64,000 nt of DNA, taken from NCBI RefSeq assembly GCF_000956465.1, contig NZ_JYJA01000035.1:62001-126000 (forward strand). The letters are read 5' to 3'. A model generated the notes under the pieces. The model saw only the letters and a program-made list of their open reading frames with translations. It did no database searches and was not told the origin of the DNA. Position 1 is the first letter of the stretch; each line of letters starts with the position of its first letter. Origin of the DNA: Microbacterium trichothecenolyticum (lineage in GTDB: Bacteria; Actinomycetota; Actinomycetes; Actinomycetales; Microbacteriaceae). Shown here one piece after another: positions 46,265-52,406 of the stretch. Both the position numbers and the translations under genes were made by a program.

Positions 46265-46296
46265 GATTGCGCATCAGTTCACCGAAGGGCCTTAAC

Positions 46297-47784
46297 GTGA
46301 CCGACATGAGCTCTCCTGAGCCCGGGGCCGATGAGTCCAGCACACCTTCGCCGCCCGCCGCGCCGACGCCGGGCGCTCCCGCCGATCACGTGCTGTCGAC
46401 GGCGGCCCTCAACACCGACGGCCTCGACGACACGCCGGTGCCGCGGCGGCGCGTGTTCGCGTGGGCGCTGTGGGACTGGGCGACGCAGCCCTTCAACTCC
46501 GTCATCCTGACCTTCGTCTTCGTGTCGCTGTACCTCGTGTCCGACGCCTTCCTGCCGGCCGACGTCGCCGAGCAGAACGCGAACGGCGACATGGCGTGCT
46601 CGAGCGCCGCCGACGCGGGCACGGCGTACTGCGGCGCCCTCGCCGATCTGTCGGAGTGGTACGGCTGGGTGACCTTCGCCGCCGGCATCCTGATCCTCCT
46701 GCTCGCTCCCGTGCTGGGCCAGCGCGCAGACGCCGCAGGCACCAAGAAGCGGTGGGTGGTCGGGGCGACCGCGGTGCTGGCGCTCCTGCAGTTCGCACTC
46801 TTCTTCGTGTACTCCGAGCCGCAGTTCTTCTGGCTCGGGGCGATCCTCGTCGCCCTCGGGTCGGTCTCGTCCGAGATCGCGGGCGTCAACTACAACGCGA
46901 TGCTCGTGCAGGTCTCGACGCCGAAGACGATCGGCCGCGTCAGCGGGCTCGGCTGGGGCATGGGCTACATCGGCGGCATCCTCGCGCTCGCGCTCGTCGT
47001 CGTGCTCAACACCTTCGACTGGTTCGGCCTCGACGTGTCGGACGGCCTCGCCTATCGCCTCATCGCGGTCGGCGCGGCGGTGTGGACCGTGCTGTTCGCC
47101 CTGCCGTTCGTCTTCCTCGTGCCCGAGTCGCCGGCCGACCCCGGCCGTCGGAAGGTCGGCTTCTTCGAGGGCTACGTCGTGCTCGTGCACGACATCGTCG
47201 CGCTCTTCCGCGAGCACCGGCCGACCTTCTGGTTCCTCATCGCGAGCGCGGTCTACCGCGACGGCCTCGCCGGCGTCTTCGCGTTCGGCGGCGTGCTGGC
47301 CGCGGTGTCGTTCGGGTTCAGCGCGACCGAGGTGATCGCGTTCGGCATCGCCCTCAACCTCGTCGCGGGCGTCTCGACGATCATCGCGGGCCGCCTCGAC
47401 GACCGCTTCGGCGCGCGCGCGGTCATCATCACCGCTCTCACGATCCTCATCGTCAGCGCCCTCTTCGTCTTCTTCCTCCGCGAGGGCGGCAAGCCGGTGT
47501 TCTGGGTGGGCGGCATCATCCTGTCGGCCGCCGTCGGTCCGGCGCAGGCGTCGAGCCGGTCGCTGCTCGCACGTGTCACGCCCACCGGGATGCAGGGCGA
47601 GGTCTTCGGCCTCTACGCGACCACCGGCCGAGTGATGAGCTTCCTTTCGCCGCTGCTGTGGGCGACGTTCATCGCGGCGTTCGGCGCGACGCACTACGGC
47701 ATCCTCGGCATCGTGATCGTGCTGCTCGTCGGGCTCCTGCTCCTGCTCCCCGTGAAGCTGCGACCCAAAGACATCGGCCGCTGA
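46297..47784 (+). CDS. MFS transporter, UMF1 / Atg22-like family
   Basis: 495 residues. After a Pro/Ala/Ser-rich 45-residue N-terminus comes RRRVFAWALWDWATQPFNSVILTFVFVSLYL, the WALYDWAxxxF signature of UMF1/Atg22-like permeases. Later segments include SSEIAGVNYNAMLVQVSTPKTIGRVSGLGWGMGYIGGI and ALNLVAGVSTIIAGRLDDRFGARAVI. Substrate unknown; relatives export amino acids from vacuoles in fungi. Start is GTG 46297 or ATG 46306, three codons apart. Confidence 0.85.
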   Translation: MTDMSSPEPGADESSTPSPPAAPTPGAPADHVLSTAALNTDGLDDTPVPRRRVFAWALWDWATQPFNSVILTFVFVSLYLVSDAFLPADVAEQNANGDMACSSAADAGTAYCGALADLSEWYGWVTFAAGILILLLAPVLGQRADAAGTKKRWVVGATAVLALLQFALFFVYSEPQFFWLGAILVALGSVSSEIAGVNYNAMLVQVSTPKTIGRVSGLGWGMGYIGGILALALVVVLNTFDWFGLDVSDGLAYRLIAVGAAVWTVLFALPFVFLVPESPADPGRRKVGFFEGYVVLVHDIVALFREHRPTFWFLIASAVYRDGLAGVFAFGGVLAAVSFGFSATEVIAFGIALNLVAGVSTIIAGRLDDRFGARAVIITALTILIVSALFVFFLREGGKPVFWVGGIILSAAVGPAQASSRSLLARVTPTGMQGEVFGLYATTGRVMSFLSPLLWATFIAAFGATHYGILGIVIVLLVGLLLLLPVKLRPKDIGR

Positions 47785-50788: not shown

Positions 50789-51412
50789 TCAGGCGCCGGG
50801 CCAGGAGTCGGCGAGCTTCGTCAGCAGGCGGGCGAGCTCCGCGCGCTCCTCGTCGGTGAAGGCGGCGAGCGCCGAGTCGATCGCCTCGCGCCGCTCACCG
50901 CGGAATCCGCGCACCAGACGGGTTCCGGCATCCGTCAGCGCGACCCGCGTGCGGCGGGCGTCGTCGGGGTCCGCCTCGCGCCGCACCAGGTCGAGCTCGA
51001 CGGACTGCTGCACGAGCCGCGACGCCCGGGGCTGATCGACGCCCACCGCGTCGGCGATCTCCCCGACCGAGAGCGGATGGGATGCTGCGGCCAGCGCCTC
51101 GAGCAGCCTCATGCGCGCGGGGCCGCCGAAGCGGCCGCCTCCTCCGGCCCACGGCGGTGCGCCGAAGCCGGGGCCCGGTCCCCCGCGACCCCACGGACCG
51201 CGACCGCCGGAGCCGTGCATCGTGCCGTCGGCGTGGACGTGCTCCCCGCCATCGCCGCTGTGCCCGTGCGGTCCGGCGGGCCCGTGCGCGTGCGGGCCCG
51301 TGGAGTGCGGACCGACGCCCTCCATCCACGGCGGACGGGGGCCTCGTCGTCCGCGGAGGCGGGCGAGGGCGGCGGCGATCGCGTCGGACGGGTCGTCGGG
51401 AGTGGACGGCAT
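50789..51412 (-). CDS. MarR-type regulator with His/Gly-rich N-terminal extension
   Basis: 207 residues. The C-terminal half is a MarR winged helix (MRLLEALAAASHPLSVGEIADAVGVDQPRASRLVQQSVELDLVRREADPDDARRTRVALTDAGTRLV). The first 90 residues are unusual: HSTGPHAHGPAGPHGHSGDGGEHVHADGTMHGSGG followed by Gly/Pro/Arg/Phe runs, a likely metal-binding or disordered segment. TAAATT (51424-51419) lies six bases before ATG 51412, so it is leaderless. It is divergent from a second MarR-like protein whose tail is also His-rich. Confidence 0.85.
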   Translation of the reverse strand: MPSTPDDPSDAIAAALARLRGRRGPRPPWMEGVGPHSTGPHAHGPAGPHGHSGDGGEHVHADGTMHGSGGRGPWGRGGPGPGFGAPPWAGGGGRFGGPARMRLLEALAAASHPLSVGEIADAVGVDQPRASRLVQQSVELDLVRREADPDDARRTRVALTDAGTRLVRGFRGERREAIDSALAAFTDEERAELARLLTKLADSWPGA

Positions 51413-51530
51413 GCATCCAATTTACATGCGACTTGACATGGATCTGGAATGCATGTCACACTGCATGTACATGCACTTCGACATGTATCACTCGGCGGCC
51501 CTTCGAGCCGCCCCCGAAAGGACTTCCCCC
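51413..51530. promoter_or_regulatory. Divergent MarR promoter with a CATGT/ACATG cluster
   Basis: Six ACATG or CATGT words lie within about 65 bp (51423-51487), including the perfect palindrome TGCATGTACATGCA at 51462-51475 and TGCATGTCAC. TTGACA is at 51433-51438, and a TATCAC word at 51486-51491 could serve as a rightward -10. The pattern fits multiple binding sites for one or both regulators. Confidence 0.65.
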
Positions 51531-52406
51531 ATGAACGACATCAATGACAACGAAGAGAACGACATCCCCGCCGGCACGCGTCCGCTCGGCTATTGGCTGC
51601 GTGCGGTCGACGGCCTGCTGACACGCGAGTTCGCGACGGCGCTCGAGGCCGAGGGCATCACGCGGCGGGACTGGATGGCGCTCAACGTGCTGTCCGGCGA
51701 CATCGACGCCCCCGAGTTCCGCGAGCGTCTCGCCCGCAAGGGCAAGCGCCTGCGCGACCTCGAGGAGCGCGGCTGGGCCGAGGAGCAGGGCGACGGAACG
51801 TGGGTCCTGACCGAGCTCGGCCGCTCCGAGAAGGAGCGCATCGGCGCGATCGTCGACAGCCTCCGCGCCCGTGTGGTCGCCGCCGTCGGCGACGACGAGG
51901 CCTACGCGGCCCTGACCGCCTCACTCGAGGCCATCGCCCGTGAGCTCGGGTGGGACGAGAACGCCACCGGCCGCGATCGCGGTTTCGGCGGTTTCGGACG
52001 CCCCGGGTTCGGCCCCGGCTTCCGTCCGGGCTTCGGTCCGGGCTTCAGCGGCTTCGGCCCGGGCTTCGGAGGCTTCGGCCCTGGATTCGGCGGGCGGCCG
52101 CGTCCGTTCGATCCCGACGTCCACGACGGCTACGGCCGCAACCGCCATCGCGGATTCGCTCCCGGGCGCCCCGGCCACCCCGCCGAGCGCTTCGACGAGC
52201 CCATGCGCGGCTACGGCGATGAGGGCTGCCACGGCCACCACCCGCATGCCGGCCACAGCCACCACGACCACGAGAGCCACGGCCACGGCGGTCATGGCCA
52301 CGGCCACCACGGCAACCACGGGCGCGGCGGACGGCGCACCCAGCAGGCGTACGAACGCGGCTTCGACGCCGGGTTCGCCCGCGGCCGGGAGACCGGCGCG
52401 GCCTGA
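51531..52406 (+). CDS. MarR-like winged-helix protein with GFGPGF repeats and poly-His tail
   Basis: 291 residues. Residues about 12-135 form a MarR/winged-helix fold (LGYWLRAVDGLLTREFATALEAEGITRRDWMALNVLSG, LRDLEERGWAEEQGDGTWVLTELGRSEKERIG). Then come Gly/Phe/Pro repeats (GFGRPGFGPGFRPGFGPGFS), an Arg/Asp region, and a histidine cluster (GCHGHHPHAGHSHHDHESHGHGGHGHGHHGNHG). A GAAAGGA site lies just before ATG 51531. The His-rich tail suggests nickel, zinc or cobalt binding; disorder-driven assembly is another option. No metal transporter is adjacent. Confidence 0.82.
   Translation: MNDINDNEENDIPAGTRPLGYWLRAVDGLLTREFATALEAEGITRRDWMALNVLSGDIDAPEFRERLARKGKRLRDLEERGWAEEQGDGTWVLTELGRSEKERIGAIVDSLRARVVAAVGDDEAYAALTASLEAIARELGWDENATGRDRGFGGFGRPGFGPGFRPGFGPGFSGFGPGFGGFGPGFGGRPRPFDPDVHDGYGRNRHRGFAPGRPGHPAERFDEPMRGYGDEGCHGHHPHAGHSHHDHESHGHGGHGHGHHGNHGRGGRRTQQAYERGFDAGFARGRETGAA

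Follow-up and report, generated by a model that had tools for sequence, protein, structure and literature searches.

Within the window, by which we mean the whole 64,000-nt stretch of Microbacterium trichothecenolyticum DNA that was analysed, two genes that we call P1 and P2 diverge from an intergenic region of 118 bp (Table 1). P1 is a true MarR protein by profile, scoring above the Pfam thresholds for MarR_2 (45.7 bits, cut-off 27) and MarR (25.9 bits, cut-off 24.6); two generic helix-turn-helix models, HTH_IclR and HTH_27, were also above theirs. It scored below the cut-offs of the NCBIfam AdcR zinc-regulator model NF038251 (18.4 bits against 175) and of the ArsR/SmtB model NF033788 (27.6 bits against 55). 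A defence-system identity of the pair was rejected, since a PADLOC search returned weak matches only for P1 and none for P2.

Table 1. Features of the P1–P2 locus and of the recurrent transporter gene, with positions in the window.
Feature	Position	Strand	Basis
MFS transporter (Atg22 type), positional companion	46267..47784	+	Pfam
P1, MarR-family regulator, 207 aa	50789..51412	-	Pfam MarR_2 profile; predicted winged helix-turn-helix (wHTH) and two C-terminal helices
P1 recognition helix, residues 127-139	50996..51034	-	predicted helix; GVDQPR and following SRL invariant
P1 His/Gly/Pro-rich insertion between helix 1 and winged helix, residues 22-97	51122..51349	-	low pLDDT; length varies (21-row alignment)
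-10 box of P1, TAAATT, 6 nt before start codon	51419..51424	-	spacing kept in orthologues
Candidate operator element A, ACATGCGACTTGACATG	51424..51440	+	exact element confined to array in own genome
-35 box of P2, TTGACA (putative role)	51433..51438	+	all six columns at least 90% in 77-locus consensus
Candidate operator element B, ACATGCAGTGTGACATG	51452..51468	-	exact element confined to array in own genome
-10-like box of P2, CACACT, 18-nt spacer (putative assignment)	51457..51462	+	consensus CAcacT
Palindrome TGCATGTACATGCA, back-to-back junction of elements B and C	51462..51475	.	single copy in genome
Candidate operator element C, ACATGCACTTCGACATG	51469..51485	+	exact element confined to array in own genome
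Ribosome-binding site of P2, AAAGGA	51517..51522	+	sequence; comparable motif upstream of many orthologues
P2, MarR-fold protein with long tail, 291 aa	51531..52406	+	translation; predicted fold
MarR-like core of P2 with short wing and recognition helix, residues 16-142 (approximate)	51576..51956	+	mean pLDDT 89.1; best PDB match Rv2887
P2 GF(GP)-rich repeats, about residues 150-187	51978..52091	+	sequence
P2 His cluster with single Cys (Cys233), residues 233-263	52227..52319	+	sequence
P2 C-terminal motif YERGFDAGFARGR, residues 274-286	52350..52388	+	version in 103 of 117 distinct P2

The predicted structure of P1 places a first helix at residues 8-21, a low-confidence stretch rich in His, Gly and Pro at 22-97, a winged helix at 98-159 and then two C-terminal helices. 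The His/Gly-rich stretch had been taken for an N-terminal extension in a preliminary description of this DNA made from the sequence alone; both the alignment and the predicted structure place it instead after a conserved first helix, as an insertion that is probably disordered. Its His content has a median of 12% and a minimum of 4.7% among the 52 of 61 P1 measured (the remaining nine were missed by the pattern), and 60 of the 61 P1 have no Cys at all. In the P1 of a second family (f7), the insertion is richer in Gly and Phe than in His. The recognition region is invariant in its GVDQPR and SRL residues across 12 P1 from two families (genera g1, g80 and g50 of one family, and one genus of f7).

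P2 is a MarR protein by predicted fold only. It reached no Pfam or NCBIfam cut-off, and the two Pfam families listed for it, neither of them MarR, were both below theirs. The model of its core (mean pLDDT 89.1) shows six MarR-like helices and a short wing, and the five best Foldseek matches were all Rv2887, with E-values from 2.9e-4 to 7.7e-4; the best of them has a TM-score of 0.59 by query length and 26% identity. The earlier reading of two divergent MarR-type proteins is therefore sound for P1, while for P2 it stands at the level of the predicted fold. The two are not close duplicates, a possibility rejected because their hhalign alignments gave a probability of 15% over 32 columns. The GF-rich repeats and the His cluster at residues 233-263 of P2 are present as first described.

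The intergenic region holds the six ACATG/CATGT words and the palindrome TGCATGTACATGCA that had been noted, with CATG cores at 51425, 51437, 51452, 51464, 51470 and 51482; they are organised as three copies of a 17-bp element, ACATGC-N5-GACATG. An order-1 model of the intergenic sequence gives a mean of 1.8 CATG, with at least six in 0.6% of simulations. The density alone is modest evidence; the conservation of the array is strong evidence. Counting at least three CATG on the two sides of a TTGAC box as an array, we found one in 77 of the 80 named loci recovered with P1, the others being L081 and L129, where the match lies near the contig start, and L094. In the consensus of the 77 loci the TTACATG, TTGACA and CATGTCA columns each reach at least 90%. 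A related pattern with up to two mismatches occurs in 132 of the 149 Microbacterium genomes, chance matches included. In L022, and in L103 and L114 (Microbacterium testaceum), TTGTCA or ACAACT words replace mid-array CATG words, which suggests that the half-site extends beyond CATG. The preliminary description had advised looking for the palindrome at metal-transport genes elsewhere in the genome. Neither it nor the exact element turned up there: the 4.52-Mb genome has a single copy of the palindrome and three of the exact element, all at the pair.

The array covers the putative promoter of P2 and the -10 box of P1. On the P1 strand, all 29 readable orthologues show a CATG, then a TAnnnT-type box, then the start codon 6 nt (26 loci) or 7 nt (3 loci) further on. 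With a strict pattern, a spacing of 6 to 8 nt was recovered in 61 of the 80 named loci, and 16 of the 19 missed carry the array; these patterns required a TAnnn(T/A) box and limited the spacing to 4-10 or 4-9 nt, so that the box is partly built into the counts. The P1 messenger is probably leaderless, because no space remains for a ribosome-binding site between the -10 box and the start codon. Overlap with a promoter is the usual place for a repressor. Since the array extends over the P1 -10 box and the -35, -10 and start region of P2, P1 most likely represses both genes.

Searching the 149 genomes of the genus, we found P1 in 121 (E-values up to 1e-20) and the P2 core in 119 (up to 1e-6): both genes occur in 118 genomes, neither in 27, P1 only in three and P2 only in one. 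All three P1-only genomes (G041, G111 and G120) have a reduced P2, which in G041 and G120 is core-less, and the P2-only genome (G051) has a remnant. One P1 (L273) was missed by the motif pattern and recovered by the profile search, and that of G104 lies on another contig. Within Microbacterium the two genes, their array and their His-rich segments are conserved together, in support of the preliminary reading.

To follow P2 where its core is weak or missing, 13 Microbacterium regions were fetched for reading. Seven P2 (L270-L274, L277 and L282) have lost the wHTH and keep the array and the tail, a loss called by HMM in five (in L274 through its duplicate L121) and by eye in L273 and L282. Two more (L278 and L279) have lost the whole MarR core and retain the array, a His-rich stretch and an ERGF-type end. 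A divergent wHTH is still present in L275, L276 and L280. The last region (L281, from G051) has a short P2 remnant with few His, no P1 and no array, and one exact element at the start codon of the remnant.

The wider survey yielded 117 distinct P2 from 150 loci after merging of duplicates, 13 loci giving none; the P2 picker rewarded His and the end motif, and those counts lean upward. The wHTH is kept in 101 of the 117, only the last helices in 13, and nothing was scored in three, one of which (L228) shows helices by eye. An ERGF-like end is found in 88 of the 101, in 12 of the 13 and in all three, respectively. The same loss extends to family f7: all eight P2 score no wHTH, and a Pfam scan of six of them gave no match. 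Profile alignment (hhalign) nevertheless relates them to P2 with a probability of 98.6 and an E-value of 1e-15, mainly over the first and the last two helices. The other groups have CATG arrays as well: eight loci of f7 hold 5-7 CATG in 90 bp, four of g80 hold 3-4, and g50 has 6; locus L231 is cut by a contig end. The recognition region of P1 is invariant, and P2 can be without a winged helix at the same array; P1 rather than P2 is therefore likely to be the protein that binds the array. The idea of two equal DNA binders was rejected for the same loss, and the two proteins are not equivalent sensors, P1 being the likely DNA binder.

What P2 keeps is its tail. Tail His has a median of 12.5% and a minimum of 5.9% among the 51 of 59 P2 measured, eight being missed by the pattern. 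Among the 117 distinct P2, exactly one Cys is present in 89, none in 19 and two in nine; the Cys lies in the tail in 98, and core Cys number three in all. The nearest His is within 3 residues of the tail Cys in 73 of the 98, as compared with 47% for random tail positions. A metal site would be expected to look like this, with Cys close to His in a tail that survives the loss of its domain; Gly/His repeats in GC-rich genes can drift, however, and such low-complexity drift or a redox role may also account for the pattern. Seven P2 (L098, L104, L140, L143, L152, L230 and L232) carry, in their C-terminal part, an alternating H[VIT]H[VIT]H strand, of the HVHVHVH or HIHIHTH type; all seven are without the ERGF-type end motif, and one feature may replace the other.

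Beyond the genus, a search of 199 genomes from the family gave P2 relatives in 55; the reading covered the hits that had loci, and the hits without loci included some split matches (genera g51, g29 and g56). In 26 loci of other genera (L154-L179) the P2-relative frame mostly ends soon after the core, and none has a CATG array, with at most 3 CATG in 75 bp. An MFS gene lies within the 1.5-kb flanks of 16 of these 26 tail-less relatives. As 19 of 20 Microbacterium loci have an MFS match too, this tail-less gene is the probable ancestor of P2. A further 31 loci with weaker P1-like matches include four (L235, L244, L245 and L246) with a divergent P2-like gene, and 27 without one. In these four, the P2-like E-values range from 1.4e-17 to 5.9e-31, the frame ends no more than about a dozen residues after the core, and the P1-like protein has no His-rich insertion; L245 has four CATG near the P1-like start, one of which is at the P2 start codon. 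Judged by this distribution, the divergent pair is old in actinobacteria and the His and GF segments look like later additions, since tail-less pairs exist in distant actinobacteria. Homologues without conserved His, named beforehand as evidence against a metal-sensing pair, are found among the distant homologues and nearly so in f7, where the eight P2 have 3 to 17 His each (1.1 to 6.2%); the Microbacterium loci measured do not show this.

The surroundings of the pair are variable. Among 20 relatives' 16-kb loci, two families recur that we recognised by eye and take to be dnaK (12 loci) and dcd (11), and the sulfite-reductase gene of the window recurs in eight. As the neighbours change while the pair stays, the pair is not part of one pathway operon. 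An MFS match is found in 19 of the loci, L045 being the exception; in the window the MFS gene and P1 point towards each other, some 3 kb apart. The initial statement that no transporter lies beside the pair is correct for the immediate neighbours and misses this gene. A metal-transporter target beside the pair was rejected, the only recurrent transporter gene being the MFS one, at which the own genome has no exact element. The protein encoded next to P1 (48612-50657) matches extracellular solute-binding and von Willebrand A models, and no counterpart was found in the 16-kb loci of several relatives.

These observations lead us to propose, with a probability of roughly 0.45, an autoregulated two-protein module made of a repressor, P1, and a MarR-derived partner, P2, carrying a His/Cys metal-binding tail. 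Mechanistically, P1 dimers would bind the three elements, to which the conserved array and recognition helix point indirectly, and bound P1 would repress both genes. The ancestor of P2, probably a tail-less MarR protein, would have gained in this lineage the GF-rich and His-rich tail, usually with one Cys and an ERGFxxGF-type end, while its own DNA-binding part became dispensable. The tail would bind a transition metal, and P2 in its metal-loaded or metal-free state would alter the hold of P1 on the array, perhaps through the remaining MarR dimer helices; the P1 insertion may add to the sensing. As no second target is established, what the module controls would be the amount of P2, acting as metal buffer and co-regulator. 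More tentatively, the gene pair may have become a two-part metal sensor, in which one MarR protein binds DNA and its sister sheds the DNA-binding part (in two species the whole fold) and persists as a His/Cys tail that feeds back on the shared operator.

The metal-sensing idea of the preliminary description gains from the co-conservation, from a tail that outlives part or all of the MarR domain in nine genomes and from the Cys in 98 of 117 tails, the last two being our reasons for favouring metal; it loses from the inconstant His content of f7 and of the distant pairs. There are further difficulties for a metal-reporting partner. The P2 of L278 and L279 lack any MarR helix through which they could contact P1, those of f7 contain few His, 19 of 117 P2 have no Cys, and the four tail-less distant pairs indicate that the pair can work without a metal tail. 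Some of these facts would suit a P2 that tunes P1 by mixed dimers or competition, with the tail as a flexible, unselective extension and no metal sensed: 13 of the 117 P2 keep the last helices without the wHTH, the four distant pairs are tail-less and f7 is poor in His. We nonetheless consider this unlikely, as L278 and L279 keep the tail and lose all MarR helices, the reverse of what it predicts, and as a tail Cys is so widespread.

The recurrent MFS gene, found both in the Microbacterium loci and beside most of the tail-less relatives, would fit an ordinary MarR pair answering a small molecule, perhaps the MFS substrate, with near-neutral low-complexity segments. This is distinctly unlikely given the convergent orientation and the distance of that gene in the window, the confinement of the exact element to the array of the pair in its own genome, and the partial or complete loss of the P2 MarR core in nine species. 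The Gly/Phe/His-rich low-complexity segments of both proteins (that of P1 predicted to be disordered), the three sites side by side and the retention of Gly and Phe in f7, where His are few, could instead point to a condensate, responsive to pH or crowding, that would concentrate P1 at the multi-site array; such a condensate has no need for the Cys of 98 tails and does not agree with the tail-less distant pairs, and we regard it as improbable. There is similarly little chance that the usually single Cys acts as a redox or thiol switch, for example through a disulfide between two P2 tails. Exactly one Cys in 89 of 117 P2, and a tail Cys in 98, would agree with it, against which stand the proximity of Cys to His beyond random expectation and the 19 P2 without Cys.

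Compared with known systems, the proposed repressor and metal-reporting partner share features with several. AdcR-type zinc regulators (NF038251) have the MarR fold in common with both proteins and use metal as ligand, which is only proposed here; the AdcR metal sites lie within the fold, whereas the site proposed for P2 is in the tail. MexR and its antirepressor ArmR (PDB 3ech) are likewise a MarR repressor tuned by another protein; unlike P2, ArmR is not known to be a decayed MarR protein with a His tail. Rv2887, the Mycobacterium tuberculosis MarR protein (PDB 5hso and 5hsm) that best matches the P2 core, has matched chains of 122-137 residues and so lacks the long His tail of P2; we know of no partner of Rv2887 resembling P2. 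In Streptomyces griseus, the DNA-binding repressor SrnR, of the ArsR/SmtB family, forms a complex with the nickel-binding SrnQ, which resembles no known protein, and the target is sodF (PMC7055735). The two-protein regulation is alike and the target differs, being sodF rather than the pair's own genes. P1 and P2 would work like SrnR and SrnQ without membership of that system or a claim of shared ancestry, P1 not being ArsR/SmtB by score.

The pair is widespread in the genus (118 of 149 genomes), and no paper on it was found in the open-access library searched. A P2 that can lose its DNA-binding part and still keep its tail points to an unstudied kind of two-protein sensor. If our proposal is true, the locus offers a species-by-species view of a transcription factor turning into a metal-reporting partner, with the DNA-binding domain lost and the operator and low-complexity tail kept. 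The conserved operator and recognition helix make binding by P1 directly testable.

Outside the locus, the element with up to two mismatches gave 199 and 205 matches in the own genome against control counts of 171 and 199, a small excess at most. For the looser ACATGYN5GACATG, 69 genomes of the genus yielded 84 matches against 66 control matches; on our reading of the sites, 21 of these fall outside the array of the pair, including one at the G051 remnant of P2. A regulon of the element was rejected and is kept as a lead, the exact element occurring only at the pair in its own genome. Of four off-locus places that were read, two belong to one coding gene shared by two species, a third overlaps the beginning of a coding frame, and the fourth, in G041, is intergenic. 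The G041 site is an extra exact element, ACATGCAATGTGACATG, at L283 1180-1196 (G041 contig 2), just before an apparent ABC transporter gene; its last CATG is followed by TAAACT, an arrangement much like that of the P1 promoter, and in this genome P2 is reduced to a His-rich peptide. The site is a possible second target in one species. A sequence close to the promoter palindrome (CTCGACATGCACGCGTCGATCATGTCA, with one variant) also recurs in several species, at G067 contig 2:44616, G049 contig 1:2598495, G101 contig 1:869452 and G047 contig 1:2185692, and is perhaps coding.
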